Assembly (NCBI GenBank): GCA_033439255.1
Contig: CM065887.1
Location: forward strand, 124,001 to 188,000
DNA from: Hericium rajendrae
Lineage: Eukaryota; Basidiomycota; Agaricomycetes; Russulales; Hericiaceae
DNA length: 64,000 nt
Direction: 5' to 3'
Both the position numbers and the translations under genes were made by a program. Below the pieces are notes generated by a model. The model saw only the letters and a program-made list of their open reading frames with translations, was not told the origin of the DNA and did not search any database. Position 1 is the first letter of the stretch. Each line of letters begins with the position of its first letter. This document shows, piece after piece, positions 8,306-45,064 of this stretch.

Positions 8306-9509
8306 CATCAATGAAGGTATATAAATTACCGTCATGTATGGTCATGTACAGGTATACTGACATCTTGCATGCAGGCCTGTACCTCATGTCTTATACTTGG
8401 CATGTAGCATTGTGCTGGGGCCAGTGCCTCATGCATGCCTGCTACACCTCATGCCAGCTCACTATGCCTCATGTTCACTGGTCACACCCTATGCTGGTCT
8501 ACCACATCTCGATGTACCTTGTGGATGGGCCAGTGACAGCTTAGAGATGACTACAGCTGAATGTGAGCATGTCAGCCAGCACAACTATATACATGCATTG
8601 TGTGTTGCTATGTGCAGGTGTGTCACCTGCCTGTACCTTGTGCCTCATGCCTCATACACAGACATACCAAGCCATGCATAGGCTTAGTGCCTTATGCATG
8701 CTTATCATGCTACACTACATCTTGCATACAAGCCACCATCCTATAGATGCTTACTGTACTTCATGTACAGGCCCACAGCATCTTGACACTCTGCACATGC
8801 TTGCAGCACCCTGTGCATGGCCACCACACCCTGTTGATCTCCTGTACAAGCTAGTAGCAGCCTTACATATGGGCCTGTATGCCTTATGCTCACCCTCTAT
8901 GCCTCATGCATGGCTCTCAATATCTCACACATCCTCACTGCGCATTGCATCTTATATATAGGCCCATTACAGCTTAACATTGGTGAGCATGGCCACTGGA
9001 CCTCTTGCACAGCTATGACACTTATCATGCCTTGTGCATGAACCTAGTGCCTTATGCACATATGTACTTTTGTTGTGCTTTACCAGTGCACACATGCCTG
9101 CACATAGCTCTACCTGTACATGATGTGTACCATTGTGCATGTGTGCACTGTTTGAACTTGTAATATACTTGATTGTACTAGTAGCTGTATGAAATATAAT
9201 TGATTTTGGCTTTATATCTCTTGTATCTGATTGATCTGAGACAGTACTTAGTAATAGCAAGGATCATAGTAGGGATCATATAGATCAGAGCAAGCCTTTA
9301 AATTTATATGATTTGTACAACAACTACAGCTATCTTTCAGAAACATGTAGCACTATATAGTGTCCAACTACTGTTATGATAGCTATGATAGGCCTCATAG
9401 TCTTACATAGTTGAGAACTGTGGTGGCATAAATAGTGATAGACCTTATAGTGCTATGATAAAACATATAGATCAATACTGGGCTATATGAAATTTCAATT
9501 TTTCAGATG
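8306..9509. mobile_element. Old minisatellite-bearing element X1
   Basis: The right end at 9496-9509 reads caatttttcagatg, the inverted form of a CATCTGAAAA terminus like those at 23184 and 41422. The left end is uncertain. The core, about 8330-9150, is a degenerate tandem array with many units of 20 bp (for example tcatgccagctcactatgcc then tcatgttcactggtcacacc). CpG is rare and TpG/CpA common compared with the GC-rich arrays elsewhere, as expected of an older, deaminated copy. The flank 9170-9500 carries ctatgatagg and catagt words like those near the ends of X2. No protein gene is credible here. Confidence 0.6.
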
Positions 9510-10030
9510 ATACACACTACACCAACTCATATATGCACTCTTGGCTTACATTTTTTGACCTATGCATACTTTTGTTGATTAGCTTACACATGTATCAACC
9601 TATGAGCATCACAACAAACTTATGTATGCTTCTACTACCTCATACATTTCCTGTTAGCCTGTGCACCTTCTATTGATTTGTATACATTGCTGCTAGCACC
9701 AAAGACAGAATTTAATTTCTATATTTGGATTTTTTTTCTGACTTTTACAAAAAATAACATAAATCATACCAGTTTTTTTTTTTAAATAGAGCTTATATCT
9801 CTTCAATGTATAATCTAGTCAGTATTTTTCTATTTTACATGCATAAAATACTATAAAAATTGAATTCTTACCTTCAAACCATATTTTGTATACTGACAGA
9901 AATTAGTGACCAAATATGGCAACTACTTTCTGGTAAAATTGCCTGTCGATTAGCATGAAGGTTTAGAGTAACAAAAAACTTATACAAATGCCTGAGAGCA
10001 TCAATTGTGCAAACATCACTTTAAGTATAT
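9510..10030. other. AT-rich stretch with no recognised feature
   Basis: Contains T-rich runs (9727-9787) and no open frame, hairpin or repeat that I can match within the window. Confidence 0.5.
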
Positions 10031-11577
10031 TAGGGTTCAACACAAGTGCACTCATGGGTGACCTAGATTTGAACTCGCAGGTATTCTATCTGTCCAAGGT
10101 GCTGACCTGGATCCATGCAGATTTGCACCACTGGGTGATCTGGAGCTGCAGGTCAGGTATCTGTGACATCACAGGTCACTTGCAAGTCAGTTGGTCTGAA
10201 AGTTGTGTCTCACTTTTACGATGCCCTTCTCTTTGTTTCTTCATCTTAATCCTCCCCTTTTTACCATATCTCCTCAATTCAATGGCAGGATGGGTGTTAT
10301 GGAGATTCGAGAGGCTTCTAAGTGAGTCCAAAAGCCTTTTATTTCATTGTACTGTACTGATCTCAGGAGTCTCACTCGATAACAGGCAAGGCTCTCATTT
10401 TTCACTGTTCTTCCACAGGTTTCATGATGTTTGATGGGTTTCATGACATCCCACCATTTTTTGACATCATCCACCATATTTCGTGTACCATCTGTGCTTC
10501 TCCCATCGTCCTCATCAACAGGTCAACCAGCCAACCGGCCCTTACCCATCTTCGACAACCAGCACTCATGTGTACCAGAGATTTAATTCCCACTCACAAC
10601 AGTAAGAGCATGCACAGTGCTAGTCTAGCGCTGCAACTGCAAGGCCCACAATGCCTGTCAGGTCTTGTTGCTACAGCATTGTTGCTACAACAGCAAGGCT
10701 TGACATCTTTTTGCTGATCATCTAAGCAGTGCCTAGCATGCCTCAACAATGCGCAGTTGTCTACAAACAGCTTTGCATATCCTTGCATGTCTGAGACAGT
10801 GTGCATCTACCAATACATGCCCTACTAGCATACACATTTTTGACTACATGCCCCCACCATCCCATAGTCCATTGCTCAAACTACATGTGTGCATTCATGC
10901 CCATGGACATCACACATGTCACTATGCATGCTGTCATATCATTCGTCTGACAGAAGCCCAATGTGAGGCAAGTTTTATATGCCATCAGTGCTATTCAACA
11001 ATCAAAATGCACCCTCCCCGGTCTCATTCCCAATTTCCATCCAAGCTGGTGATGTCATTTGTGTGTGCATGCCCACAGCTATGCCAGTACACCAGCACCC
11101 ACATATGCTCCCCTTGCACATGTGCCAGCCCATGTGCACACACATACTTAAAGCTGCTCCACCGACATGCACATGCCCATGTCGATGCTACAAGTATGTC
11201 GCATGCAGCCTTTTGAATCCATGCCTTGCTTGTAGACTTTATACACTTCATGGGTATGACAAGATATAGTGATAATGTGCATATGTGATTGGAGCTGTAA
11301 GTTAGTGTTGGCAGATGACATATAGTATGTAGTTAGTTAGGGATCATGACATATAGATTTGAACTTTGCAATATAATATGTTAACCAAAATAAAGTTTGG
11401 ATAGCAGGTTACCCACAGGTCACTCACAGGTCAATGGGTTTGAGCACAACCTTGATCTGGATTTGTACAGGTCTCAGCCACCAGGTGATCTAGATCTACA
11501 AGTTAGATACCTGCAGGTCAATTTTATGGGTATACCCGTGTTGACCTACAGGTGACTCTGACTTGTGTCGAACCCTA
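10031..11577. mobile_element. Non-autonomous hAT-like element I
   Basis: Ends are TAGGGTTCAACACAAGTG at 10031 and the inverted CACTTGT-like form with GTGTCGAACCCTA at 11577. Flanks are AAGTATAT (10023-10030) and AAGCATAT (11578-11585), an 8-bp target duplication with one difference, which is the hAT signature. Sub-terminal regions of about 180 bp (10031-10205, 11394-11577) are built of short gacctgcaggtca words. The core, about 10690-11220, is a decayed CA/TG-rich array preceded by a hairpin-like stretch at 10657-10704. No transposase is present. Confidence 0.75.
10657..10704. other. Degenerate GTTGCT/AGCAAC hairpin in hAT element I
   Basis: A left arm gtcaggtcttgttgct faces agcaaggcttgac on the right. 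Pairing is imperfect, and an internal gttgctacaa repeat has enlarged the loop. The position relative to the minisatellite matches the perfect hairpin of element II. Confidence 0.5.
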
Positions 11578-11760
11578 AAGCATATAAAAAAACACTATTT
11601 AATCTAATCTAATCATGAGTAGTTCAGCTCCTACCTCTGATAACTCTATATTTTTTGCTATGTTATATATCTTAGTACCTTATTATATATATAATCTGGT
11701 ATGTAATATAGTACACACTTGTCATATCTTATTATACTCAGCCCAATATATGATATACAC
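11578..11760. other. AT-rich spacer between two hAT-like elements
   Basis: Only AT-rich sequence with tatatata-like runs. It contains the 8-bp duplications that delimit the two elements. Confidence 0.6.
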
Positions 11761-12181
11761 TAGGGACCGACACGAGTCAGAGTCACCTGTGGGTCAACAC
11801 AGGTATACCTGCAAAATTGACCCGCGGGTATCTGACTCACAGATCCGGATCACCTGGTGGCGCAAACCCATCCAGATCCAGGTCAAGATCTTCCTCAAAT
11901 TCATTGACCTGCGAGTGACCTGCAGGTGACCTGCCACCCAAACATTTTCTGGTAAAAACATAAGTATTTCACAGATTCGAAAGCAAATTCACACATCTAA
12001 TATTCACTAAATAACTATGTACTTTGTATCTATCTTCTGATGCCAGCTCGTAGCCTCTATCATGTTCGAGTACCAGTACTATCCCCCGCGCCGCTCCCAT
12101 GCACTACACGTGCGGTCCTTACCGTGTACGCACAGGGTGCTGGCGAGACATGGGTCCAGGAGGCCGCGCGCGGTGTGCTGG

Positions 12182-12281
12182 GGATGTGTAGGAGATGACG
12201 GGGATGTGTGCGAGACGACGAGGATGTGTGCGAGACGACGAGGATGTGTGCGAGATGACGAGGATGTGCGCGAGGTAACAC
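12182..12281. repeat. 20-bp minisatellite, five units
   Basis: Five consecutive units of exactly 20 bp, consensus GGATGTGTGCGAGACGACGA. The middle two are identical and the outer ones diverge. Confidence 0.95.
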
Positions 12282-12644
12282 GATTGTAGCACTTTCTTGA
12301 GGTGTACAGTGGCGTGCAGAGTCGGGGTGCTTATAAGGATGGGGAGTGCATATGGGACGGTTCGAGTGCGAGCAAGTGGTGTCGCTGTGAATGTATGCGA
12401 ACGAGTGGGCAACTGAGCAAAAATGAGATTGCAGCGGTGACACCATGATCAGCTCTGCATGCCACACAAGATTGAAGAACGACATACCTCGCCCGAATAC
12501 AAGATCCACATGTCTGCCCCCCGCCTCGAATCCCAGACTATCGGGTGCACACAGTCCCAAGTGTGCAAAGCTGTTTGCGAACAACTGCACGCTGTTGAGT
12601 GGGAGGGATGCGCGGTGTTGAAGTCAGGTGGTCAGCGAATGGTA

Positions 12645-12677
12645 GTCGAGCCCCGTTGCTACAGCAACGGGGTGCGA
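12645..12677. other. Perfect hairpin H1 in hAT element II
   Basis: The stem CCCCGTTGCT with a 2-nt loop (ac) and AGCAACGGGG is extended outward by gtcg/cgac across a small bulge. This is the reference form of the H1 hairpin seen in several elements. Confidence 0.95.
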
Positions 12678-12941
12678 CATTTCGCCTTGCTAGATTCTCA
12701 CGTACGTTGGGGCCTGCGTGTTCTTGGGATGCAAGTGGGAGATAAAACACACCCTTGCGCATGCGAGGGCCAGCCATGGGAATCAGGTAGGAGACGGGGC
12801 ACGTTCGAGTTTGACGTGTCGACGAGGGTGCTGTTGGCGCTGCGGGGGAAGTGTCGAGGGCGTGCGATGACGGGAAGCCCGGACAGTGCGCGAGAGGCGA
12901 AAGGATGGGGAATTCGGGGACTATCAATGAATAACGAAGCA

Positions 12942-12966
12942 AGTCTCGCTCGTTATGAGCGAGACT
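12942..12966. other. Perfect hairpin H2 in hAT element II
   Basis: AGTCTCGCTC and GAGCGAGACT pair perfectly around the loop gttat. Related stems occur at 24498-24528 and 43312-43345. Confidence 0.95.
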
Positions 12967-13457
12967 CACGAGATTAGCAAAGTACAGTGAGACTAAGAGC
13001 CATTTTGACTCACCTTTTACCCCTCTAGCCCCTCCAAGCCCTCCTTGCCGTTGAAAAATGAGAAATAACGAAGGGAGGGGAATGGAAGGCTATGGAAAGT
13101 GGTAATAAGAAACGACGAGTTACGAGACCAACTGACCTGCGAGTGACCTGTGATGTCACAGGTACCTGACCCGCGGCTCCGGATCACCCGGTGGCTGAAA
13201 CTCGCGCAGATCCAGGTCAGCCCTTGCGCTGACCTGAAAACCCGCGGGTTCGGATCCAGGTCACCCGCGAGTGCACTCGTGTCCAACCCTAATATACACT
13301 ATTATATATGCTTATATTATAAATACTTGTAATATCTACAATTATAATAGTAGTCTAGTTGTATGTCTAATCAAACAAGATTCAAGATTGAATATATGAT
13401 CAATGTCAAACATTGTATTGTTGAACAAAGCTAATGGCCAATCACATGATCAATAGC

Positions 13458-13483
13458 AGACCTTGTTCGGCCGCACAAGGTCT
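13458..13483. other. Hairpin with stem AGACCTTGT in W
   Basis: The perfect stem AGACCTTGT/ACAAGGTCT surrounds the loop tcggccgc. Confidence 0.9.
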
Positions 13484-14208
13484 GGTGGCTGTGCTTAGCT
13501 TATGTCAGCAGTAGTTGATGTTGCGCTCTCTGCTCTCTCTTCTTTTCTTCAGATAGCTTTGAAGTCAGTGTGACACTACCAGTAGTGCACACTAACTACA
13601 AGGCTTGGACACGCCCAGTCCCCATCTGCAGCGAGTTGCGGCTGAGGTGTCCAATGATGGTGTGGGGCCATCACCAACTTTCTGCTGATGATGTGGCATA
13701 AAGATCAGGCCATAGAGCTCTCAATACCACATCAATCAGAATGAATTAAAGCTTGTTAGAATCAGATTTACAATAGCTCTAGAATAGTGCCACAAACAAC
13801 AAAATAGCATGACAAAATGCTGACCTATTGGACTATATGTCTATGATGATGTGGCAGACTGTTTGCTTTATAGCTCTGCTGATACTGCATCAATCATGAT
13901 GTATGAGGGCTTGTTGAACTCAGATTTACAATAGCTTTCTAACAATACAGTGTACAACATCATAGCACCATTGGTTGTTGAGATAGGAGACAATACTGTT
14001 TTGCTAATATAGCATATAAATCGAAGAATATCTCTGCTTACAGTGATCCGATTTTCGTATTCTAAATTGGGTTGGAAAGATGTAATCCAAGATATATGAA
14101 CACAATTTACCGTTTGTCGATTGATTGCTTTGTTGCAGAGCTATAAAGCAATCACTGTATACAGTGTATTGGCTCTCTAACCGACTTATGCTTATGTAAG
14201 CAGGCGCT

Positions 14209-14236
14209 AAGACCTTGTTCGGCCGCACAAGGTCTT
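14209..14236. other. Hairpin with stem AAGACCTTGT in W
   Basis: Same hairpin as at 13458, one base pair longer. The third copy is at 28366-28393, with gcggccga as loop, the reverse complement of tcggccgc. Confidence 0.9.
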
Positions 14237-14380
14237 GTAAGATCACATGACCGAGTCTCAGGACCCACTGCTACTGATAAATTGCATTTTTTGCTCATTT
14301 TATCAATAAACAGTATGTACATTTGTTTGCTGTGTATCATTTTAGTGGCTGTATCTTTCTATAAGCAGTAAATTATGTTA

Positions 14381-14940
14381 GAGACCAGCTTTCTGGTATA
14401 TTTGGATGCAATTGAGAACAAGTGAATCGGTTGAGTACTGATTAAGTTAGCTGGAGTTCAAGCATTCTAGGGGGAAAATGCAGAAACAATTCGCATTCTG
14501 CGAGTTTTGCACCGATCCTAACACCTAAGGTACCGTCAGAAAGCTATCAATAAGTAGATTCTGATGCATTTTAGAACGAGTAAATTGGTTGAGAATTGGC
14601 CTAGTTAGCTAGGGTTCAAGCATTTTAGAAGAGGAAAAAAAGAAACACTTTGCATTCTGTGAGTTCTTAACCGATTTGGATGCATGAAGTATGGTAGCAA
14701 AGCTATAAGTGAGTAGATTTAGACGCATTTGAGAACGAGTAAATCGGTGAAGAATGGACTGAGTTAGCTCAAGTTCAAGTGTCATAGAGGGAAAATGTAG
14801 AAATTCATTGCATTCTATGAGTTCTGCACAGATCAGGATGCAAAAAATACTGTCAGAAAGCAATAAATGAGCAGATCCAGATGCATTTGAGAACAGGTGA
14901 ATTGGTTGAGAACTGATCAAGTTACATTAAATCAACAAAG
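14381..14940 (-). repeat. 158-bp satellite, about 3.5 units
   Basis: The anchor word aacgag/aacaag falls at 14417, 14575, 14734 and 14892, a spacing of 158-159 bp. Each unit contains gttagctagggttcaagcat, a gaaacactttgcattctg-like middle and gatgcatttgagaac. Reverse-complemented, the units align with the array at 18425-19465, so one satellite family exists in two subfamilies. Confidence 0.85.
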
Positions 14941-15094
14941 TTTGGCTAGAGCTGGAGTTGAACCTGCAAACTCGTTAGATTGAAGATATGTGATTATATA
15001 AGCCAACTGCCTAATGGGCATAGTCATCGTTTTGGTGTCGTTTTCACTATGAAAAGGCGGTATAGAGTAAACGATTCTAAGGAATCGTAACTAC
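14935..15094 (-). repeat. tRNA-like retroposon head with hairpin (S2)
   Basis: Reversed order: body word acattaaatc, B-box-like site (ttgaacctgc), A-box-like ccaactgcc, a spacer with tggtgtcgtttt, then the hairpin AAACGATTCTAAGGAATCGT at the end. Same layout as S1. It lies directly after a satellite cluster. Confidence 0.7.
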
Positions 15095-15501: not shown

Positions 15502-17158
15502 ACGATTCCTTAGAATCGTTTACTCTATACCAGCTTTTCCTATTGAAAACGACACCAAAACGATGACCATCCCCATTTGGCAGTTGGCTTATATAATCAC
15601 AAGTCAACAATCTGATGAGTTTGCAGGTTCAATTCCAGTTCAACCTTGAATTCTTTTATTTCATTTTACAATCAACATATCTCACTATCACTGTTCACAA
15701 TCATTATACATAACATTTATATCTCATTATGATTTCTTGGAATCATTTACTCTAACTAATTTCTCATATAAAGTGAGATTATAAGTTTGATTCTGCCAAT
15801 TGCCATTCTTATAATTTTGGATATTTCTTAGAAATGTTCAGTCTTTGAAATCTAACTAAATCATTGTTAGACTATATGCATATGAAAGTCAATGCTAGTC
15901 ATATTAGGACCAGAAGTTCTCAGTATGAAAAAGTGCAAACTTGTTACAAGATAGTGGATAAATGTACCTCATAGTAAAGTCTGTATCTTTTTATTGATGT
16001 AAGTGAGTATGATGTATGGTAATATAATGAGAGCAAATTTTACCTCCTCAGAACATTTGTTTTCATAACAATAGGTCCAGAAATGACTGAGATATGAGCA
16101 AATCACTTCAAAGATATCCTTGAGGAGGAGATCATAGTGATTGCATTGTAGTGGAGCAATGAGTGGTGCTATTTACACGCTAAAAATACCATTGGAAAGG
16201 TCTAATTCGTACCTTTCCAACGGCATATTATACGAGACGATCGGATACGTATTGAGAAAACGCGGTAGCAATTACTGAAGGGTTGGTATTAGAGGTAGGG
16301 GCAAACTTGTTGAGGCCATATCTTTTTATTGACTCATCCAATTGTAGTGTACCTAGCATTGTTCAAAAGGTATAATGGAGAGCTTTCTGACGCAATCAAG
16401 GGACCGATGATATCTCCAGTACTTAAGGAGATACACTCGAATTATCACAAAACCTCCTATTTGACTATTTTCAAGATTTTACATAATCCGCAGCACGGGC
16501 AAAATGACATACTCCCGTCCCATGACATCATGAGGGGGACGGGAGTACGTCATTTTGCCCGTGCTGCGGATTACATAAGCGATTTATAAGCAGGAAAAAA
16601 TCGAAAAAATCATTCAAGTCTAGGGCAAATCATCAAATCATCTGAGAATAGACACATACTGAGTAGTATAAAAAATCAGTAAAAATCGTGTTAATATGGC
16701 CATTGATAGTACGATTTAGAAACACTTGAGTTTATGTTTATAGCTAGAGAATTGACAGAGATATAGCCAAATTACTGATTCAGACCCCTAGAAGGCAAAA
16801 ATAAAATCAATCTAGACAACATACAACAGTTGACAGACCTTCAAAGGCCACACTTATGTACTTCATAAATGTAAACACAATTTTTGAGAAGTCATGTGCA
16901 ACAGTGAGCCTGACCGGGCTCGCTGTTGCATGTGACCATTATTTTGTCATTAGTTCAACTCTTGCTGATAACAAAGTTTAAAAATAAGAGATAAGTGTAA
17001 AACAATATACTTTGAAGATGGAGATCTTTGCAGCATTACAATACTAGTATATTCAATTCTCTGTTATCATATTAATTCTGTGAGCATAACACTACAAAGT
17101 TAGAACAATTCAAAAGGAATCGTATTGCCGTGCAGAGCATCGGCCCTCTTCCACCAAG
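15502..17158 (+). repeat. R1 repeat, copy 2 (full length)
   Basis: Begins with the hairpin ACGATTCCTTAGAATCGT and ends ccaccaag; TT lies at both borders. It has a tRNA-like head of the S1 type, then a partly deleted second head. Hairpins are at 16190-16235, 16485-16572 and 16892-16938. It is in opposite orientation to copy 1 and very similar. It sits inside satellite sequence, between actgaccag and tttagctag. Confidence 0.9.
16485..16572. other. Long perfect hairpin in R1 copy 2
   Basis: An aatccgcagcacgggc arm faces gcccgtgctgcggatt, with the stem continuing inward through catactcccgtccc. About 35 bp of stem and a 13-nt loop. Confidence 0.9.
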
Positions 17159-17637
17159 TTTAGCTAGAATTCAAACATTTTAAGGGGGAAAACAAAGCAA
17201 TGCTTTGCATTCTGCGAGTTTTGAACTGATCTAGATGCATGAGACATGGCTGGAAAGTTACAAATAAGTGGATTCCTGAAACATGTAAGAACGAGTAAAT
17301 TGGTGGAGAATTGACCAAGCTAGCTAGAATTCAAACATTTTAGGGGAGAAACAAAGAAACACTTTGCATTCTGCAAGTTATTAACTGATCTAGACACATA
17401 AGGTATGGCTGAAAAGCTATAAACAAGAGAATTCAGATGCACTTGAGAACGAGTAAATCGGAGGAGAATTGACTAAGTTAGCTCAAGTTCAAGTATTACA
17501 GGGGGAAAATATACGAATTTATTGCACTCTGTGAGTTCTGCACAGATCAGAATAGAAAAAATACTGCCAGAAAGCGATAAATGAGTAGATCCAGATGCAT
17601 TTGAGAACATATGAATTGGTTGAGAACTGATCAAGTT
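17159..17637 (-). repeat. 158-bp satellite, about three units
   Basis: Repeats the words tagctagaattcaaacatt, actttgcattctgc and gagaacgagtaaat at a spacing near 158 bp. It is the same subfamily as 14381-14940 and is interrupted at 17638 by a foldback element. Confidence 0.8.
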
Positions 17638-18424: not shown

Positions 18425-19465
18425 GCAGAATAAATCATGAGGTAAGTCCCTCAGATCTCTATTGATTTACTCATTCTAAATTGTATTGGAATGTACTAAT
18501 TAATTGCTTTTCAGCCATGCTACATAGGCCTCAGGCCATCCAGAACTTAGAAACCAAAACTCGAAATTGAGATCTCCCTCTCAAGATCTTGACCTTGAGG
18601 TAAGTCTCTCAGATCTCCACTGATTTACTTGTTCTCAATTGTATTGGAATGTGCTAATAAATCGCTTTTCAGCTATACTATATAGACCTCAGATTGTCCA
18701 GAACTCGGAAACCAAAACTTGAAATTGAGATCTCTCCCTCAAGATCTTGACCTTAATGTAAGTCTCTCAGATCTCTACCGATTTACTCATTCTAAATTGT
18801 ATTGGAATGTGCTAATGAATCGCTTTTCAGCCATACTACATAGACCTCAGGTTGTCCAGAACTCAGAAACCAAAACTCAAAATTGAGATCTCTCTCTCAA
18901 GATCTTGGCCTTAAGGTAAGTCTCTCAGATCTTTACCGATTTACTCATTCTAAATTGTATTGAAATGTACTAATTAATTTCTTTTTAGCCATGCTACATA
19001 GGCCCCAGACCATCCAGAACTCAGAAACCAAAACTCGAAATTGAGATTTTCCTCCTAGGATCTTGATCTTGAGGTGAGTCTCTCATTTCTCCACCAATTT
19101 ACTCATTCTAAGTTGGCCTGGAATGTACTAATTAATCGCTTTCTAATCATGCTACATATATCTCATACCATCCAGAACTTGAAAATCAAAACTCGAAATT
19201 GAGATCTCCCTCTTAAGATCTTGACCTTGAGGTGAGGTCCTCAGATCTTCACTGATTTACTTGTTCTAAATTGTATTGGAATGTGCTAATGAATCACTTT
19301 TCAGCCATGCTACATAGACCTCAGATTGTCCAGAACTTGAAAATCAAAACTCAAAATTCAGATCTCCCTCTCAAGATCTTGACCTTAAGATAAGTTCCTT
19401 CAATCTCTACTGATTTACTTATTACAAAATGTACTAGAATCTACTAATCAAAGGCTTGCCAGTCA
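18425..19465 (+). repeat. 158-bp tandem array, seven units, each with splice-like signals
   Basis: The donor-like word falls at 18442, 18600, 18758, 18916, 19074, 19232 and 19390, exactly 158 bp apart. In units 1-4 and 6 a GTAAGT or GTGAGG word is followed by a CTAAT branch-like word and TTTTCAG or TTTTTAG precisely 73 bp from the donor; units 5 and 7 have lost one signal. The remaining 85 bp (ccatgctacataggcctcag, then accttgag) is not a multiple of three and has no long frame. It is homologous, in inverse orientation, to the other satellite clusters, whose units lack the donor word. Confidence 0.9.
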
Positions 19466-19479
19466 ATACACCTGATAGT

Positions 19480-22823: not shown

Positions 22824-24497
22824 ACATAAGCAATTTATAAGCAAGAAAAAATCAAAAAAAATCATTCAAGTCTAGGGGCAAATCATCAAATCATCCGAGA
22901 ATAGGCACATACTGAGTAGCATAAAAAATCAGTAAAAATCGTGTTAACATGGCCATTGATAGTACTATTCAGAAACACTTGAGTTATGTTTATAGCTAGA
23001 GAATTGACAGAGATATAGCCAAATTACTGATTCAGACCCCTAGAAGGCAAAAATAAAATCAATCTAGGCAATATACAACAGTTGACAGACTTTCAAGGGC
23101 CACACTTATGTACTTCATAAATGTAAACATAATTTTTGAGAAGTCACATGCAACAGCGAGCCTGACCGGGCTCGCTGTTGCACCATCTGAGAAAAGGACC
23201 AGTGATATGTGGCACTATATATCCTACATAGCTCTGATAGGGCCATAGGAGTCCTCTTTTCTACATAGCTCCTCCATAGTAGTGAAGTAATCTATATAGA
23301 GCTACCATAGCTATCATAGCTATCATAGTATAGAGTATGAGCTATCATAGCTATTATAGCTGCTATAGTATATAATGGCTATCATGGCTATCATAGCTAT
23401 GTCAGCTATGTGGTATATCTCTGTTATCATATCATGTCTAGCTAGTAAGACTACTATCTACTCTATATCACCTCTATCTTGTATGGTGCTTAAGAGTGCT
23501 AAAAATATATTTAAATATTCAGATATATTATAAATCTCAATTTTGTTGCATTTAAAGCATTTAAAGCATCGAAAATTTAAAAGCATTATATTTGAAATAT
23601 TAAACTACAATGCATTTAGTACAAAAGCTACAAGCATCACTATATATCTATAATACACTACAAAGACCAACACTTTAAGATAAGATAACACAATATACAA
23701 AGATAAGATAAGATTCAAAGATAAAAGATAGATATTAAAAGATAAGATAGAACTTACTTCATAAATAAGAAAAAGCGAAAATAATCTAAAGGCAAAGTCA
23801 ACAAATTAGTATACAAGACACAGATATAGAAAAACATAAGACTTACTTAAGATAATAAAAACGAAAATGTAGAAGTCTACAAAGAATAGTAGGGTTAATG
23901 AACAATAAAACAATATAACAACAACATGATAACTTACCGAACATGAGAGAGTTGAGACAGGAGAAGAGAGAGCGATGAAAGACGAGAGATGATAGTGGTA
24001 GGGAAGAGAGAGAGAAAGCGCGTCGCGCACGTCTTATATAGACGTGGCGATTGGAGCGTCAAATGTAGCCTGCCGAGACCGGGCCGGTCGTTGCCGGGCA
24101 TCTCGTCAGAGGCTGGTTATTAGATTCCGTTAAGTAGATTGTGAAAGCAACGAGCATATTGCATAGTAAGTACACGAGTAGCTCATTCATTGTATTCTTA
24201 TCGACTCGTTGTACCTTCTCACTTTTTTTGGGAGTTAATACGATTTTATTTGGTTTGTTAGAGTCGAATCCGCGAGGCGCGGGAGCGGAGTGCTGTGGCT
24301 GAAGCACTCGTCGCGTCGACTTGTTACTCTTGCCCTTATCTCCCTTCCCCCGGTCGTCTTCGTCTTCGTCTCTCTCGCTCTCTCCGTACCTCTCCGCACC
24401 CTCAAGATCTTCAATAAGTCGGGAGGGTCTGTCAGGTGTTCCGAGGACCAACAGGTAAGTAAAAAAAATCTTCTATTGTCTTCTCGTACTAACCACG

Positions 24498-24528
24498 CGA
24501 GTATCGCTCGTTCAACGAGCAATACTCG
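24498..24528. other. Hairpin H2 in X2
   Basis: CGAGTATCGCTCGTT faces AACGAGCAATACTCG around a single c; one mismatch. It follows a GTAAGT word at 24454. Confidence 0.9.
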
Positions 24529-24622
24529 TGTTTTCTCGCGACCGCGTACTACACCCCCTTCGCTTTCGACACCCCGAGCGTGGCCACCCCATCCCCCGAT
24601 GACGCTGTCCGCGTCCGCGTCG

Positions 24623-24653
24623 TGTCTCGTTGCCGTGGCAACGGGGCGCGACG
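24623..24653. other. Hairpin H1 in X2
   Basis: Core stem CGTTGCC/GGCAACG (24628-24643), extended by partial pairing of gtc and gac outside. Same core as the H1 of hAT element II with a compensated base pair. Confidence 0.85.
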
Positions 24654-26178
24654 TCATTCGGCCAGCCTCCTCCGCCCTCGCATCCCACTCAACGACCCTC
24701 GCACGTCCTCAAAAGGTTCGTGCGTATCTCCGCCTCACCAGCCCCTCGCATTACCGGTCCCCCTGCCATGGACAACACGCTCGCGGCCATCTCTTCGACA
24801 TCGCCGACCACCCCTGCCTCGTCAACAACGTGCTGGCGGTCATGGCACGTGGCTGTGCACGTTCGGCCACGCACGTCCGCGAGCGACCCCGCTGCGCGTG
24901 CTTGCCTTCACCATCCACGTCCACGCGAGTACGCGCACGGCCACGCATGAGCACAAGCCCGCGCGAGGTCCCGGCCGCGCGCGCACGCCCAGGACGGCGA
25001 CCACGTCCGCGCCAACTCTCGCACATGACTGCGCGACCATATGAGTCGTCCGCACAAGCCGCGGCTACCACCATGCACGATGCGCAAGCCCGCACATGGC
25101 CCCAACTACGCACGTAGCCCATGCAACAATGCGCGACCCCGCGAGCTTGCGCACGGCCATGCACGGCCAACACATCGGTGGGCAAGCCCAGCACGGCGTG
25201 AGCAAGGGCATGCCAGCGCGACAGCACGCGCCTACCTGCGCACGGCGGTGCACATGTCCCAGACGGCATGCGGCAACGTCAATGCGTGCTTGCCCTCGCA
25301 CGCCGTCGCACGCTCGACAGCGCGCCCTCACCCATGCACTGTCACGAGAGTGCGCGCCTGCCCGTCCACACCCTCATATTCCTTGGATGGCGCGGGCCTG
25401 CGCGCAGTCTCCGACAGTGCACGCATGGCCCCGCGAGCGCGTGCGTATACCCTCCGACGCCTACATCGGCTGTCCGCCCCGCGCCGGTCCCGACATGTCC
25501 CCCGTGCCTGTGCGGCGATCATAATGTGCCTTTGCTGCACCATTGCCATGTCGTTGCTGTGCGGGATGCGAAGTCCATTCCGGGCCTTCATTTACTAAGT
25601 AGTTTAGTGTTAGATTTTGTAGTATCATTGCTTGTAGTAGTTTACAATTGAATATCAGAAGATTTTGACCTGATGTCTTGATTGCCTAGGTGACTTACCA
25701 TAAGGCCTGTAGTAACCATAGTAGCCATAGTTCCTCTTAGTAATTATCATAGTCCTATGTATATGACACCCCTAGCTATAGAGGCTATGACATCCTATAT
25801 ATTTAACACTTGATGCTATAGAGGCTATCATAGGCCCCATAGCTCCACATAGCTGAACAGTCCAAGTTCATAGCTCCCATAGCTCACTGATAGGGCCCAT
25901 AATAGGACTTGCTGCTATATAAAAAACACATTTCTCAGATGACGTGACCATTATTTTGTCATTAGTTCGACTCTTGCTGGTAACAAAGTTTAAAAATAAG
26001 AGATAAGTGTAAAACAATATACTTTGAAGATGGAGATCTTGCAGCATTACAATACTAGTATATTCAATTCTCTATTATCTTATTAATTCTGTGAGAATAA
26101 CACTACAAAGTTAGAACAATTCAAAAGGAATCGTATTGCCGTGCAGAGCATCGGCCCTCTTCCCCCAAGTTCTTGTAT

Positions 26179-35861: not shown

Positions 35862-37347
35862 ACGATTCCTTAGAATCATTTACTCTAACCCGCTTTTCAA
35901 CTCAAAAAAGATGACACCCAGCCAATGTAATGCCTTTTATAGTAATAATTTCTCACATCTTAAAGTAAGGTTGTAGGTTCGATTCTGGCAATTGTCATTT
36001 TTGTGATTTTAAATGTTTCTTAGAGATATCAGTCTACTAAATCAAATTTAATTAGTGTTAAACTATATGCATATATAAATCAATGCTAGTCTTATTAGAA
36101 CTGAAAGATTTTAGTATAGGAAAGTGCAAACTTGTTGAAATAACAGATAAACATATTTAATAGGATATTCTGCACCTTGTTATTGATGTAAGTGAGTGAG
36201 ATGTATGATAACATGATAAAGGTAAATTCTACCTCCTCAGAACATTTTTTTCCATGAGAATAGGTCCAGAAATGACTGAGATATGAGCAAATCACTGTAA
36301 AAGATACCCTTGAGGAGAAGGTCAACTTAATCACATCCGATCGGCGCAACCAGTGGTGTTATTGACACGCTCAAGATATCTTTGGAACGGGCTGATTTAT
36401 ACCTTTCTAACAGTGTATTGCACAAGACCATCGGACAAGTATTGAGAAAACGCGGTGGCAATCACTGAAGGGTCAGTGTTAGAGACAGGGGCAAACTTGT
36501 TGAGGCCATATCTTTTTATTGACTCATCCAATAGTAATGTACCTAGTGTCATTTGAAAGTTATAATAAAGACCTTTCTGATGCAATCGAGGGAGAAACAA
36601 TGGCACCAGTATTTAAGGAGGGATACTTGAATTATCAGAAAACCTCCTATTTGACTATTTTCGAAGTTTTTTGAGGTTTTACATAATCAAACCAACAGGC
36701 TTGATGACATCTTCTTGTACGGCCGTACCAAAAGACGTCATCGAGCCCATTCCGAGGATTACATAAGCAATTTATAAGCAGGAAAAAATCGAAAACATCA
36801 TTCAAGTCTAGGGGCAAATCATCAAATCATCAGAGAATAGGCACATACTGAGTAGTGTAAAAAATCAGTAAAAATAGTATTAATATGGCCATTGATAGTA
36901 CTATTTGAAGACACTTGAGTTGATGTTTATAGCTGGAGAATTGACAGAGATATAGCCAAATTACTGATTCAGACCCCTAGAAGGCAAAAATAAAATCAAT
37001 CTAGGCAACATACAACAGTTGACAGACTTTCAAAGGCCACACTTATGTACTTCATAAATGTAAACACAATTTTTGAGAAGTCACATGCAACAGCGAGCCT
37101 GATCGGGCTTGCTGTTGCACGTGACCATTATTTTGTCATTAGTTCAACTCTTGCTAGTAACAAAGTTTAAAAATAAGAGATAAGTGTAAAACAATATACT
37201 TTGAAGATGGAGATCTTTGCAGCATTACAATACTAGTATATTCAATTCTCTATTATCTTATTAATTCTGTGAGAATAACACTACAAAGTTATAACAATTC
37301 AAAAGGAATTGTATTGTCGTACAGAGCATCGGCCCTCTTCCCCCAAG
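35862..37347 (+). repeat. R1 repeat, copy 4 (diverged)
   Basis: Full length with the second-type head; TT at both borders. The long hairpin region (36698-36747) has a different stem from the other copies but still pairs. The 36363-36423 hairpin is decayed. The third hairpin is at 37078-37126. Its CCAAG end has cut the orphan gene that follows. Confidence 0.88.
36698..36747. other. Hairpin with a replaced stem in R1 copy 4
   Basis: GGCTTGATGACATCTT pairs with AAGACGTCATCGAGCC, with two non-Watson-Crick positions; inside the loop GTACGGCCGTAC is itself palindromic. Other R1 copies have an unrelated stem here. Confidence 0.8.
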
Positions 37348-38850
37348 TTGAGATGACGAATATCAGTAGCATCCAAAGGCTTGGACTTAGTAGAGCTACA
37401 GTTGTGATTAAGCCTAATGTTAGTATGCTCCTGAGCAGCCTCCATAATAAGCTTCCACTTCTTGTCAGTAAGAGTACTGATGGCTTTCATATAATGCACA
37501 GAAGCTGCCCTCCAGTTGGTAGCAGAGAAGTTGGGATCATCAGGATCCTGAAGACGAGTAGAATCTTGAAGGTGAGCAGGGTCCTGAAGATGGGCAGGAA
37601 GCTCATCATATGGCAACTGGCATAGTAAAGCTTGCTCTACCTATGCAAAGTTAGCCTCTACAAAATGAATTTAAAAAAAATACCTACAGCAACAAGAGCA
37701 AGACAAAGAGCTGACTTGGACCATCCATCCTGCTTAGACTCAGCAGGAAGAAGTCTGACAATAGATAGATGGACTTGACTAAGGGTCTTGGCCACCATCT
37801 TACCTCTGAATATGCCACTGATAGTCTACAAAGAAATATTAGCATAGAAAATTAGAAGGAAAAAAAAAAACATACCAATGCATCATCATCATGAGAAGAC
37901 TCCTCAAAGATGAAAGGCACAACTCCAGGGTCTGTAAGATCAGCTACATCAGTGAACTGTCCTAGCTGAAAGCATAGCCAAGTATGCTTGAGGTCCACAT
38001 CAGTCTCACCAGGCTCTGCAATTGCCCTAGACTTGGAAAGAAACAGAGCCCAGGACTCCTTGATGACTGCCTCAGCAACAGATGCAAAGTAACTCTGCCA
38101 GTCATAGGTCCACTGCCAAATCTGAAACACAAATATATAGTGACGATCAAAAAAAAAACAGGAAGAACTCACCATGCCAAAGACAACATCATTCTTTGCT
38201 GAGATCTCATGAGATACCAGAGGATAACATGCATCCCAAAGCTCCTGCATATGAGGGACCAAACCCTCAATGATCCATGGTTCCAAGCAGTTGCCAAGAA
38301 CATCTTTCTACATGAGAATATACCAGTCATGAAACTCATCTGGATCAACAGGAAGCTTGTTGTTGGTGAAGCCAGAGCTAGAGCCAGAGCGGTTTGACAT
38401 TGTCTAACAATTATCAATCAAAAAGGAAATAAAAGATTATAATCAAAAACATACCATAGCAGTAGATGGAGTACGACACAAGAAGGAAAGAATTAGTAAA
38501 TAACAGAAAGGTTAATGGCAACTTATGATAGATGAAGATGATGCTGTACGAGCATGCTTTGTTTGGGACAAAGATGGTGTCTGCATAGGCAGAGTAGCTG
38601 ACACTGACTGTGTCTAGCTTGCAGAAGATGTGTGTACCGTGACCATAGAAGTCAATGATGTGCAGGGAAGGGACTTGGGGGTTGGTGCCATCCAAGCAAG
38701 CGAGACTGCCTTTGAAGCAGATGCTGGGCGAGAAGACAGAGCTGCCTTGAAAGTAGATGTCATGTGAGAAGAGGGAGCTGCCTTGGAAGTAACTGACATA
38801 TGAGTGGATGGCCTCAAGAGCTGTGAGTGGCTTGCAAGGGGCCAGGGTCA
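37348..38850 (-). pseudogene. Orphan-family gene remnant (copy 2)
   Basis: Minus-strand exons: a Ser/Thr-rich first part (38850 to about 38460) with 42-48-bp internal repeats (KAAPSSHMTSTF, KAALSSRPASAS), then TMSNRSGSSSGFTNN (from 38403), IWQWTYDWQSYFASVAEAV, TISGIFRGKMVAKTLSQ, and EQALLCQLPYDEL onward until R1 copy 4 cuts in. An in-frame TAG follows DWYILM. It aligns with the remnant at 26179-27512 around the ALVAVEQAL segment. No known function. The 5' side runs into element X3. ATG 38400 is a possible internal start but lies after a spliced exon. Confidence 0.6.
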
Positions 38851-38876
38851 AGTCTCATTGCTGTGGCAATGAGGCT
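38849..38876. other. Hairpin H1 in X3
   Basis: CTCATTGC pairs with GCAATGAG around tgtg, extended by a partial tcaagt/gctcaa match. Two base pairs differ from the H1 of hAT element II, with both sides changed together. Confidence 0.9.
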
Positions 38877-39972
38877 CAACAACACGTTGTGCAGCCGTAC
38901 ACACATAGTCATGCATGATAGTGCTAGTGTCATGCTGTGAGTATGTGTGCATACTGGCTCGCTATCACACCATCCTTTATGCATACAGCATGCATGTCAG
39001 CACGGGGACTCTCACCAGCTCACACATGGCCCCAATCATGCACGGGAACACATGCAAGCCAGCACAGGTGCGCACATGTTGCATGTGGCCCTGCCCACCT
39101 GTGCATGTTGTCGCACATTGTGCACAGGCCTACAGCAGCATGATGTCTCATACGTGAGCCCTACACCTTGCACCCCATGCTGCTTTTTTGCATGCGGTCA
39201 TCACACCTTGTGCACAAGCCTTCATCCCATGCACAGGCCTGCCTCAGCCTAATATCTCGTGCACAGATCCAACGCCCCACACCAGCATCCCATGCCCTAT
39301 GCACACCTTGCATGTCTCACACATGGGCCTGCTACCTTGCGTATGAATCTCACATCCCATGCCTTCCGTGTACAGGTCTGCTACATCATGCACACAAACC
39401 CATCACAGCTCGATGCCTCATGCCAGCCCTTCGTGCTTTGTGCATGGACCCCACGCCCAGTGCTTCCCATGTGCAGGCTGGCTGTGCATTGTGCGCATGC
39501 TCACCCTGTCGTGCATGGGCCCCAGACCTCGCACCAGCTTCTGATGCTGCATGTGCATGTCCGCACTGGCCCAAAAATGCTGTCTTCGACAATGTCTGAT
39601 TATCTACTTAGTTTTTACTTATCTGACCCCTAGTATGGTAGAACTAGCTACTGTTTATCATTGAGTCTACAATATAAATATTTTGAACTCACACATCTGG
39701 CCTTGGGATGCTCCTGCCCTTATATATCTTTAAGATCTAGATATGTCATGGTTGGAGTCATAGCATTGATAACAACCTCAGAGCATTACATAGCTGTCAT
39801 AGCTGCAACTCATAACTACATAGCTCTATATACCCTCCACCAACAACTATCAATGCTATAATAAATCTTATAGAATTATATAGCTGTGCTGTCAAAATAC
39901 ATAGGGTCATAGTACTATCATAAGAGTCATATTATTGGCTGGAAGCTATGTAAAAAATAGATTTACCTGATG
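38851..39972. mobile_element. Minisatellite-bearing element X3 (left end unresolved)
   Basis: The right end reads tttacctgatg (39962-39972), the inverse of CATCAGGTAAA. It contains an H1-type hairpin (38849-38876) and a 20-bp degenerate array (about 38900-39590; five successive 20-mers near 39260-39360). It is intermediate in CpG content between X1 and X4. Open frames in the array are not genes. The left border probably lies within the orphan gene. Confidence 0.6.
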
Positions 39973-41216: not shown

Positions 41217-41303
41217 ATCTGCAGCACGGGCAAAATGACATACTCCCATCCCATGACATCATGAGGGGAACGGGAGTACGTCATTTTGCCCGTGCTGCGG
41301 ATT
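41217..41303. other. Long hairpin in R1 copy 5
   Basis: As in copies 1-3, with two mismatches in the stem. Confidence 0.85.
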
Positions 41304-41868
41304 ACATAAGCAATTTATAAGCAGGAAAAAATCGAAAAAATCATTCAAGTCTAGGGGCAAATCATCAAATCATCTGAGAATAGGCACATACTGAGTAGCG
41401 TAAAAAATCAGTAAAAATCGTCATCTGGAAAAAGTGTCCATACTATTTTAGCCTACAGTAGAACATATGGTCTACAATAGCTATAATAGATTAAATATTC
41501 TCTGTAGCATCTGTTGATAGGTGGGTCTCTATTACAAGTACATGTAGCAGCCGGTAGCAGCCTGTAGTTGGCCTGTAGTGGTCTGTAGCATCTATAGATG
41601 TCAATGTCTACTGTAGCTATAAGTCTTAGCTACTGTAGCTACTATAAGGCTACACTGCAGTATGTGAGACTCAATACAATATAGTTTGCTATAGTCCATT
41701 GGTCTCTCATATCAGATCTCCAAGAATATATCATGCAAAATATTATATTTTTGGCTATTTACATTTTGTACACTATTAGTAATTCACAGTTGGCAGCAGA
41801 TCTATATTACGAGTATGGATTTACATCTCCCACTCCATATCCTTCTACACCTGCAGCACGAATGTCTC

Positions 41869-41904
41869 ATGGGAAATGTTTTGCTGCAGCAAAACAGTTC
41901 TCAC
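41869..41904. other. Hairpin H1 at left arm of X4
   Basis: GTTTTGCT-gc-AGCAAAAC, extended by tgggaa/ttctca outside. It stands immediately before the minisatellite. Confidence 0.9.
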
Positions 41905-43300
41905 ATGCTGCATCCGCGCGGGTCGGCGGCGACATGCATGGGTCAACGGCGACATGCGCGGGTCAAGGAGGGCGGCATGTGTGGGTGGGCAGGGGTGCAG
42001 CAGCGCACGGGTTGGTGGCAGCACGTGGGTCGGGGGGAAGGGGGTAGGTGCGGGAGTCGGCAGCGATGCGCACAGGTTGGCGGTGGCATATGCAGGTCAT
42101 GGGGGATGTATCAGGGTCGGCGGCGACACGTCGGGTCTGCGGGGCCGTGAGCGAGTCGGCAGCAATGTGCACGGGTCGGGGATGCGTGCGTGGGTCAGTG
42201 GAGGTGTGCGCAGGTTGGCGGGGGATGTACGAGTCAGGGGGGTGTGCGACCCCGCCGATCCGTGCACGGATCGGCGGGTGTGCGACTCCGCGGGGGCGTG
42301 CGCGGATCGGCGGGGGCGTGCACGGATCGGCGGGGGTGCGCGCGGATCGGCAGGGGCGTGCAGGTCGGCAGGGGCATGCGGGAGTCGGCGGCGATACGCA
42401 CGGGTCAGCGAGAGGCATGTGGGGTTGGCGGCAAGCGCGCGGGTCAGCGAGAGGCATGTGGGGTTGGCGGCAAGCACGCAGGTCAGCGGCCATGTTGGGG
42501 TCGGCAGGGGCAGGTGGGGATCCATGAGGGCATGCGCAGGTCGACGATGATGCGCGCGCGTCGGCGACGAGGTGCAAGGGCATGCACACTCAGCGGCGAT
42601 GCGCACGGGTTAGCGAGGGTGGGGTGTGTGCGGGTTAGCGAGGGTGGGGTGTGCACGGGTCAGCAGGGGCAGGGGTGTGCGTGGGTTGGTGGCAGCACGC
42701 GGGTCAAGGGGGAGGGGGGAGGTTATGCGGGAGTCGGTGGCGATGCGTGCGATTGGCGGCGACGTCATGCGCAGGTCGGGGCGAGGGTCGGTGGCGATGC
42801 GTGTGATCTGTGGGGGCATGAGTGAGTTGGCAGCGATGTCTGTGGGTCAGTGGCGATGTCTGCAGGTTGTCAGCAATGCATGCGGGTCAGCGAGGGCATC
42901 TGCGGACTAGTAGGTGCACGTGCGGGTGCGTGCGCGGATTGGCGAAGGTGTGTTCGGATCGGCAGGGGCATATGCGGATCGGCAGGGGCGTGCACGGGTC
43001 CGGGGGGAAGGGGAGGCACGTGCAGGAGTCGGCGGCGATCCGCGCGAGTTGGCGGTGGTGCGCGTGGGTCGGCGGTGGTGCGTGCGGGTCGGCGGCGACA
43101 TGCACGGGTCGGCGGTGCGTGGATCGATGGCGACGTGCGTAGGTCAGGGGTGCGTGCGCGGGTCGGTGATGACATGCGTGGGGATCGGCGACGTGCACGA
43201 GTTTTTGAGGGCGCTCGCAGATCGGCGGGAGCATGTGCGGGTCGGTAGGGGCACGCGAGGACATAGCAGGCATGCGTGAGGGTCTGGATGCAGGCGTGAG
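41905..43300. repeat. 20-bp GC-rich minisatellite, left arm of X4
   Basis: About 70 degenerate units of 18-22 bp, consensus near RGGTCGGCGGCGATGCGCAC. Best-kept units are at 42280-42360. Period 20 makes all frames read as 20-residue repeats, which explains the long spurious frames. Confidence 0.9.
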
Positions 43301-43311
43301 GGTACAAAAAT

Positions 43312-43345
43312 GAGACTATCGCTCGACAACACGAGCGATACTCTC
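43312..43345. other. Hairpin H2 closing the left arm of X4
   Basis: GAGACTATCGCTCG pairs with CGAGCGATACTCTC around acaaca, with one mismatch. Core TATCGCTCG is identical to that in X2. Confidence 0.9.
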
Positions 43346-43651
43346 TTGGTTAGCATAAGAAAGCTACAAGATGACTGTAATCACTTACCTTAATTCCCAC
43401 TCTCACAAGATCCAATGAAGACGGATTAATGATACTTAAGCTACAAGCAAAGGGGAAGAGGGAGTGGGTGGAAGGAAGCTACGACGTGTTGACGACGTGG
43501 CAGACAGAGTGAAGTCGCGCGCAAGTCGAGCGCACGGAGCCGCGCAGCCCGATTCGTTTTAGTGACCATATATGGGCAATAAAACAGCACGGTGCGCGGC
43601 GGGCCGTGCCTGCGCGCGTTTCGACTTGAACAAAAAAAATGCGGGAGGCAC

Positions 43652-43687
43652 GTGGGAAACGTTTGGCTACAGCCAAACATGTCCCAC
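43652..43687. other. Hairpin H1 in the middle of X4
   Basis: GTTTGGCT-ac-AGCCAAAC with outer GTGGGA/TCCCAC. Confidence 0.92.
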
Positions 43688-43867
43688 ACTCCATTTCTGC
43701 ATCTCAAAGTTGTTGTTCACGGCAGCAAAATGTGCGTTTCCACTGTTAAATTGCAACTTACACCTTTTTCTAGGTAACTCCTGCGGGATTCACCACAGAA
43801 AATACAAAAGAGGGTCACACAGTGAGTAAAAGTAAACATTATGGCCCCTATATGGTACTCATACGGA

Positions 43868-43910
43868 GGGTATCGCCTGTTACATGGACGATACCCATTG
43901 TTTTGCAATG
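43868..43910. other. Double hairpin before the right arm of X4
   Basis: GGGTATCG pairs with CGATACCC (43868-43896), followed directly by CATTG/CAATG around tttt g. Confidence 0.75.
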
Positions 43911-45020
43911 CTCGTTCGCCCGACATTGCGCGCACAGGATCGTGCGCAGCTCACAGCCTCGTGCGCAGCTCACGGCCTCGTGCATGGCCTTAGGTCCTGA
44001 CCGATTCATGCGTGCCTCTGCCAATCTGCCCACACGCTCGCCGATCCCCACGCGTCGCCGTCGATGAACACACACACGTGCCAACTCGCTCGCCCCGCCA
44101 CCGTTTCGTGTCTGTCGCCGCTGACCTGCGCACCCCCCGTCGACCAGCACACGTCCCTATTGACTTGCAGACACACCGACACTGACTCGTGCCCCCGCGC
44201 GCTCCCCCGTCTACCCGCGCACGCACGCGCTGAGCAGCATGCGACCTGCCGATCCGTTCGCTTCGCCATCGGCCTGCGCACGCTCCCGCCAATTCGCGCA
44301 CGCCCGTGCCGACCAGCGCGCGCCCCCACCAATCCGTGCGCTTTGCCGCCGACTCGCGCACGCTCCTGGTGACATGCGCACGCTCCCAGCGACTCGCGCA
44401 TGCACGTGCCGACCGCACATCCCCACCGATCCACTCACGTCCCCGCCGATCCGCCCATATCACCGTCGATGGCGCACACCCCCACCGACTCGCGCACGCC
44501 CGCGCCGACCAATGCGCACCCTCGACCGGCGCGCACCACCGTCGACCGGCACGCACCACCGTCGACCCGTGCGTGTCCCCGCTGATCCGCGTGCAGCGCC
44601 ATCGACCTTGCGCACGCCCCCGCCGACTCGCGTCACTTGTGCCGACCAGCGCGTGCCCCTGCCGTCCCCCTCGTGTCGCCGCCGTCGACCCGCGTGGGCA
44701 TCTGTCGACCCGCGCATGTCTCCACCAACCCGTCCCTTTCCCCGTCGACCTACATGTGTCACCGCCGGCTGGCACACACCCCACCAACTCATGCAAGCCC
44801 CGCTGACTCATGCACGCTCCCGTCGACTCCCGCATGCCCCTGTCAGTCTCGCACATCCCCGCCGGCCTGTTCCTGCCCCGCCAATCTGCGCACGCAAATA
44901 TTGACCGGTGCGTGCCGCCGCCAACTCATGTAGGCACCCCTAGCTCGCATCCATGGCCCGCGCACACCTGTGCACACCCCCGTTGCCTCGTGCATGCATG
45001 CGCCGCCAAATCCCTGTGGA
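43911..45020. repeat. GC-rich minisatellite, right arm of X4 (inverted)
   Basis: Units such as cgcacgctcccgccgatcc, about 18-20 bp, C-rich on the plus strand and so inverted relative to the left arm. No gene. Confidence 0.85.
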
Positions 45021-45028
45021 TTTTGCAT

Positions 45029-45064
45029 GTGGGAACTTTTTTGCTGTAGCAAAACACTTCCCAC
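45029..45064. other. Hairpin H1 at right arm of X4
   Basis: GTGGGAA, then TTTTGCT-gt-AGCAAAA, then TTCCCAC: inverse counterpart of 41869-41904 with better-kept outer pairing. Confidence 0.93.

Follow-up and report, generated by a model that had tools for sequence, protein, structure and literature searches.

A hairpin-bearing module in hAT and PlavakaB-like transposons of Hericium rajendrae resembles a spliced transcription unit

A 64,000-nucleotide stretch of the Hericium rajendrae genome (the window; C10:124001-188000 in a genome of 46.8 Mb and 19 contigs, C1-C19) carries two short hAT elements (hAT I and hAT II) and four further transposons (X1-X4) in which parts of a hairpin-bearing module recur. 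An earlier sequence-only reading described this module as short hairpins, H1 and H2, beside a GC-rich tandem repeat with a 20-bp unit. The module holds up and exceeds that description: beyond hairpins and minisatellite, it looks like a transcription unit. That reading missed an intron-like sequence ending inside H2, a third hairpin (H3), a TATA box and a head-to-head doubling in X4. Stretches of the window were read and then scanned for hairpins, tandem repeats and end motifs. Pattern searches covered the whole genome, and 50 loci, mostly of about 3 kb (149,136 + 800 bases), were extracted; these carry L numbers below. The reversed pattern serves as the control for genome-wide motif counts, and the counts are complete.

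The carriers fall into two kinds. The seven hAT elements read, carriers of 1.5-1.8 kb, all end in TAGGG..CCCTA and are flanked by 8-bp target duplications (five at 8/8, two at 7/8); such duplications and terminal inverted repeats are characters of hAT elements. H1 or H2 is present by strict motif in six of the seven, including both hairpins in hAT II, as first described. In hAT I, previously called a degenerate carrier, a degenerate H1 can be recognised by eye near 10657-10702, without the 20-bp period. Outside the window, C1:1235678-1240487 (L016/L017) and C1:1247744-1250759 (L018) contain hAT elements with modules, L016 and L018 lying in a duplicated segment.

The X elements are PlavakaB-like. 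PlavakaB, of the CMCT clade, has CATCA..TGATG ends and 2- or 3-bp target duplications (Kojima, 2025; PMC12730594). Among the X-type ends checked, CATCTG or CATCAG was found in 26 of 28 rows, the other two rows being one end that reads CATCCA; rows were picked because BLAST reached the element end, some come from duplicated loci, and the ends of L008, L009, L013, L043 and L048 are not among them. These are the CATC..GATG termini of PlavakaB, CATCTG being a variant, and the target duplications are likewise of 2-3 bp: CGT at X4, AC at X2, GA at C1:72567-75357 and TT at C1:539238-542170. Insertion-free copies of the repeats targeted by X2 and X4 can be read within the window. Plavaka transposase genes are abundant in the genome (PF18759, 132 matches), but no transposase was seen inside the X carriers, and the words "hairpin" and "tandem repeat" do not occur in the main text of the PlavakaB paper (PMC12730594).

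X1-X4 are all of one kind with CATCWG ends, by motif scan for X1, X2 and X4 and at the right end only for X3. The shared ends of X2 and X4 had been recognised before. The right end of X3, near 39972, was read by eye and matches L042 at 76% over about 360 bp; its left end was not found. X1 lacks a clean target duplication, and the motif scan found no H1 or H2 motif in it. Since X1-X4 share their ends, the "unrelated termini" and duplications of the sequence-only reading hold only between hAT and X elements, and an involvement of many transposon backgrounds is not supported.

Both hairpins exceed chance by a wide margin. H1 is a loopless palindrome of up to 34-38 bp rather than a 12-bp hairpin, and falls into two classes, one with centre CGTTGCYRYRGCAACG and arms of GTCGAGTCT type, the other with centre TTTTGCTGCAGCAAAA and arms of GTGGGAACTG type. 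Its core CRTTGCYRYRGCAAYG occurs at 343 genome places (1 in the control) and the core TTTTGCTRYAGCAAAA at 69 (0 in the control). Within the window, the core TTGCYRYRGCAA lies at 12656-12667 (hAT II), 24630-24641 (X2), 38858-38869 (X3), and 41881-41892 and 45041-45052 (both X4); the window alone gives weaker evidence, with 7 matches at ≤1 mismatch versus 2.66 expected. Two-sided changes occur at 14 of 17 H1 pairs, giving 119 such cells versus 54 ± 6.7 in shuffled alignments and only 10-46 in slid registers, a count that includes the two inherited classes and core columns selected by the pattern. All 11 outer pairs, which lie outside the pattern selection, show two-sided changes.

H2 occurs as GAGTATCGCTC-N4-10-GAGCGATACTC at 223 genome places and as GAGTCTCGCTC-N4-10-GAGCGAGACTC at 36, each versus 0 in the control. 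Its arms are 11 bp long and its loop spans 4-10 nt among copies, a range equal to what the pattern permitted. An alignment of 36 H2 copies (A1), mostly obtained with a finder requiring at least 9 stacked pairs and including 9 rows from a stem-pattern search, omits redundant copies and one L019 hairpin outside the register. Two-sided changes affect 8 of 12 H2 pairs, with 22 covarying cells against 4.7 ± 1.8 after shuffling (0/500) and 0-5 in slid registers; one pair is seen as A-U, C-G and G-C across copies. Compensatory stem changes of the kind that mark structured RNA are found in both H1 and H2.

Intron-like sequence, roughly 45-50 nt long, leads into H2. The 26 H2 hairpins compared represent 23 distinct places, three places each falling in two loci. 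Just upstream, a strict CTAAY is present at 19 of the 23 and a variant (CTAAA, CTAAG or CTGAT) at three; at the last, the end of the locus is reached and the upstream side is missing. Strict CTAAY is found in 21 rows; GT[AG]AG lies within 90 nt in 18 of these, and the remaining three read GCAAG (one place, two rows) or GATGAG (L013). Genome-wide, GTRAGT-N20-48-CTAAY-N3-6-GAGTATCGCTC gives 122 + 120 matches, with at least one place counted twice, versus 0 + 0 in the control. The intron regular expression matches 23 of 24 modules, the exception being L013, which has no GT start.

An AG occupies columns 2-3 of H2 in 35 of the 36 aligned copies, so that the 3' splice site likely lies inside the 5' arm of the hairpin; the decayed right unit of X4 is the exception. 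From the branch-site A to this AG, the distance is 9 nt in 32 of the 35 copies and 7-8 nt in three, and in six copies the AG inside H2 is the only one after the branch. By sequence, the 5' site, branch site and AG at constrained spacing agree with a spliceosomal intron, from which the right X4 unit and L013 deviate. In RNA folds of eight unspliced stretches, the AG is fully paired in seven and half paired in the left X4 unit (z -4.0 to -6.5). A search for processed copies, with exon 1 joined to H2, returned 9 genome matches, four of them antisense to known modules; among the other five, C6:2235055 resembles a possible intron-less copy.

The sequence upstream of the intron is organised like the start of a gene. 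In 16 aligned copies, the hAT copy excepted, the order is TATA box, GC-rich conserved stretch, H3, pyrimidine-rich leader, exon end, intron and H2. In 17 of 19 non-hAT copies a TATA-like box, reading TTATATA in 14, stands 435-466 bp upstream of H2; an H3-like motif, likewise in 17 of 19, lies about 190-220 bp upstream of H2. With up to 3 mismatches, H3 (GTTCGGTGGCTGAAGCACCGAAC) is found at 142 + 129 genome places versus 0 in the control. Downstream of H2 follow the H1 palindrome and a C-rich tail, often with a 20-bp period, H1 standing before or after the periodic part. Two such units are arranged head to head in X4, L040 and L045.

A separate observation concerns the other strand: the module promoter appears to face a second unit, divergent and with a 5' splice site of its own (GTAAGTT / GTATGCT), at 23900-24040 of the window and 2340-2540 of L014.

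The 20-bp period is a frequent but not a general property of the tail. Among 64 lags, that of 20 bp ranks first in hAT II, X1 and both X4 arrays (X4a and X4b); X3 places it third, X2 18th and hAT I 21st, and the low ranks in X2 and hAT I mean that an array is not supported there. The hairpins of the module as first defined thus stand, but not an array in every copy; X1 does have a weak 20-bp period without hairpins, in line with the description, and X3 keeps its H1 with no more than a weak period. Elsewhere, the 20-bp lag comes first in 11/11 X4-type loci, 9/16 other non-hAT loci, 0/4 further hAT loci and 0/4 control stretches. A profile of the X4 unit matches hAT II (5 versus 0.2 shuffled) and 3/3 X4-type loci, in a scan that took L017 on the wrong strand and assumed a sense for hAT I, X1 and X3. 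In the assumed RNA sense, 23 of 25 tails show a negative GC skew; the other two have a misread strand and an assumed sense. Four close copies (L035, L037, L042 and L044) differ at 114 ungapped columns, of which 111 are transitions and 105 of these lie in CpG, as in CpG decay. Their inner gaps, of 1, 2, 16 and 19, break the reading frame. After H2, variable columns number 94 and divide 29/35/30 among the three phases.

The module is not confined to PlavakaB-like elements. Of 220 candidate hAT ends, 40 were scored: a strict GAGTCTC-type H2 lies inside within 1.5 kb at 10 and on the outer side at 1, compared with 0-1 after shifting. On C1-C2, a listed H1 or H2 lies on the inner side of 7 of 11 hAT ends. 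The hAT element at L016:718-2504 shares about 240 bp with PlavakaB-like copies (72%, E 1e-31), beginning 25 nt after the first TATA-box base of those copies, and it also holds H3, intron, H2 and H1 as they do. In three further hAT copies the shared sequence is limited to short stretches at intron/H2 and H1. This homology, together with the common order of parts, supports the presence of the same module in two unrelated superfamilies of DNA transposons, hAT and PlavakaB-like.

Two kinds of transposon, a hairpin on the predicted intron end and hundreds of copies point to a likely mobile RNA gene whose splice site would lock itself. On balance, we favour, with somewhat better than even confidence, a cassette of two superfamilies, likely a gene for a spliced non-coding RNA whose hairpin H2 would lock the 3' splice site of its own predicted intron. 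RNA polymerase II would transcribe the module, and H2 would fold in the unspliced RNA, concealing the AG until opened; through this switch the element could yield two RNA forms. The C-rich repeats might form a multivalent protein-binding tail, and the unit might help transposase-less elements to remain active or to get mobilised. A bolder version, in which the RNA gene jumped between superfamilies, the splice hairpin is an on/off switch and the RNA acts in trans to sustain transposase-less elements, is conceivable but on the doubtful side. The homology of L016 starts about where the RNA would start, which leaves room for a copying event: the unspliced RNA itself may have been copied into this hAT element.

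Several observations weigh against a spliced non-coding RNA gene. A TATA box at the corresponding place was found in 0/5 hAT copies tested and H3 in L016 only; intron, H2 and H1 are retained in most hAT copies. In 29 of 35 copies another AG, at 5 nt in 23 of them, comes before the predicted one and could serve instead. The figure of 96% paired for A1 is biased upward because the alignment was mostly gathered with a finder or pattern that requires a stem, and the covariation shuffles take no account of relatedness among copies. The X4 profile exceeds the largest shuffle in only 3 of 13 class A loci, and a universal 20-bp unit is rejected. In 4 of 12 loci (L035, L042, L043 and L041), one sense frame stays open throughout the 345 codons tested after H2; GC content is 0.61-0.73 across the twelve and 0.71-0.73 in these four. 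L041 also has an antisense frame of almost the same length (343 codons). The close copies L035 and L042 are open in different frames relative to H2, and their proteins agree only from residue 68. A Pfam search of five long open frames from module tails returned no domain. The tail is probably GC-rich non-coding DNA, though some tails keep open frames.

Those frames would suit a different origin, in which the module is what remains of the promoter, leader and first intron belonging to a protein-coding gene of full-length elements, inherited by internal-deletion copies, with the hairpins as cis-acting leader elements. The TATA box, leader and intron are gene-like, and the divergent 5' splice site faces the module. 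We consider such a remnant unlikely, given that the module is common to two superfamilies and that its long frames lack Pfam domains. Plavaka transposase places on contigs C1-C5 (C6-C19 lie outside the comparison) were compared with modules placed by strict patterns, among the matches listed, and 0 of 24 fall inside a module element. For 23 of them the nearest listed module is at least 17 kb away; the remaining one lies outside the L014 element (far end C1:542170), 139 bp past its end. A module forming part of a transposase-coding Plavaka element was not seen at these 24 places.

If the palindromes acted as DNA, as cruciforms or binding sites recognised by a transposase or by a replication or silencing protein, with the 20-bp array as a protein-binding repeat, the loopless 34-38-bp H1 would fit, and subterminal repeats are known in transposons. 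This seems less probable still, for H2 is tied to intron-like sequence at a 9-nt spacing, the spacing of its half-sites varies and the modules lie in the interior of elements. A structured RNA in several transposon types would also fit a guide RNA of a transposon-linked RNA-guided nuclease (Fanzor/TnpB). The nuclease this needs was not found, PF07282 having 0 matches in the genome versus matches in 6 of 14 control genomes, although a divergent Fanzor could escape the model, and we regard a guide RNA as very improbable. Chance resemblance of GC-rich low-complexity DNA draws on the GC-rich, degenerate tails, on X2 and hAT I lacking a 20-bp period, and on a control stretch of high GC content with 7 antisense matches to the X4 unit versus 1.4 shuffled. 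For the hairpins and the intron-like sequence it is refuted by controls of 0-1 against tens to hundreds of matches, and with the fixed architecture its likelihood overall is negligible.

The hAT carriers resemble hAT miniature inverted-repeat transposable elements (MITEs) in being short, with TAGGG..CCCTA ends and 8-bp duplications; to our knowledge, an internal hairpin unit with predicted splicing is no known feature of hAT MITEs. Helentron and HINE elements have subterminal palindromes and a central tandem repeat. The module is similar to these in its hairpins beside a minisatellite, but differs in the ends and duplications, here those of hAT and PlavakaB. With its covarying stems it is also like the structured RNAs of Rfam families, yet no Rfam match at the gathering score was obtained in the window or in 15 loci. 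Beyond this genome, H2 had 0 matches in viral contigs and H3 had 0 in prokaryote and viral contigs. No description of such a module was found in the literature, as judged by titles and abstract openings.

A parallel for carriage across lineages comes from TET/JBP genes, a cargo common to several unrelated fungal DNA-transposon lineages and thought to counter silencing (PMC12730594). That cargo is a protein gene, whereas the module here is apparently non-coding and hairpin-bearing. Tet_JBP (PF12851) has 46 matches in the genome, 38 above the cut-off; on C1-C5, where the comparison leaves out five weaker matches, a listed module lies within 7 kb of 3 of 19 above-cut-off matches. Two Tet_JBP matches stand close to modules, at 1.3 kb (C1:5280854) and 3.4 kb (C2:294843). 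A link between Tet_JBP genes and the module was considered and rejected on this comparison.

Table 1. Carriers and module parts in the window (positions counted from its first letter)
Feature	Position	Strand	Basis
X1, PlavakaB-like, ends CATCTGAAAA; weak 20-bp period at 8330-9150	7970..9509	.	
hAT element I, 1547 bp, target duplication AAGTATAT/AAGCATAT (7/8)	10031..11577	.	
hAT element II, 1531 bp, target duplication ATATACAC at 11753-11760 / 13292-13299 (8/8)	11761..13291	-	
20-bp array of hAT II, 4.7 copies	12182..12274	-	tandem-repeat scan, lag test
H1 palindrome of hAT II	12643..12680	-	hairpin scan, H1 alignment
H2 hairpin of hAT II, GAGTCTCGCTC type	12941..12967	-	hairpin alignment, fold
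Predicted 49-nt intron of hAT II, GTGAGT to AG in H2	12965..13013	-	alignment
X2, PlavakaB-like, CATCTGAGAA ends, target duplication AC	23184..25941	+	
TATA box of X2 module, 465 bp before H2	24034..24040	+	copy alignment
H3 hairpin region of X2	24283..24316	+	copy alignment
Predicted 47-nt intron of X2, GTAAGT..CTAAC..AG	24455..24501	+	regular expression, alignment
H2 hairpin of X2; AG at 24500-24501 is the predicted 3' splice site	24499..24527	+	
H1 palindrome of X2, C-rich tail after it	24617..24654	+	H1 alignment
H1 palindrome of X3	38845..38882	+	motif match, H1 alignment
X3 tail, weak 20-bp period (rank 3 of 64)	38900..39590	+	
X4, PlavakaB-like, two head-to-head modules, target duplication CGT	41422..45424	.	
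Left outer H1 palindrome of X4, TTTTGCTGCAGCAAAA type	41868..41905	-	genome pattern, H1 alignment
Left 20-bp array of X4	41915..43260	-	tandem-repeat scan, lag test
Left H2 hairpin of X4	43314..43343	-	hairpin alignment
Predicted intron of left X4 module	43341..43388	-	alignment
Central H1-like variant palindrome of X4, TTTGGCTACAGCCAAA	43651..43688	.	reading, H1 alignment
Right H2-like hairpin of X4, decayed; lacks a clean branch site and the AG of columns 2-3	43868..43896	+	
Right 20-bp array of X4	43930..45025	+	tandem-repeat scan, lag test
Right outer H1 palindrome of X4	45028..45065	+	genome pattern, H1 alignment

Other repeats share the window with these elements. Another repeated hairpin, TGCAACAGCGAGC..GCTCGCTGTTGCA, lies at 2340-2373, 23149-23182, 37086-37119 and 45637-45666, and X2 and X4 are inserted in copies of that repeat. 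The inverted repeat ACCGTTGGAAAGGT..ACCTTTCCAACGGT belongs to a further repeat family (3047-3081, 16192-16220 in a shorter form, and 22437-22477), beside which a long inverted repeat around GCAGCACGGGCAAAATGAC is found near 2700 and 41220. Hairpin arms AAGACCTTGT..ACAAGGTCTT occur in three copies, at 13457-13484 (CAGACCTTGT), 14209-14236 and 28366-28393. Tandem repeats of about 158 bp occupy 14405-14912, 17153-17483 and 18438-19448, and a DDE_Tnp_4 (PF13359) match lies at 32014-32493 on the minus strand.

Cargo that moves between transposon superfamilies is already known for protein genes. If the RNA-gene interpretation of the module is true, selfish elements can share RNA tools as well, by way of a non-coding unit with covarying hairpins and a built-in splice site. 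The predicted splice switch would be directly testable, with hundreds of natural variants within one genome.

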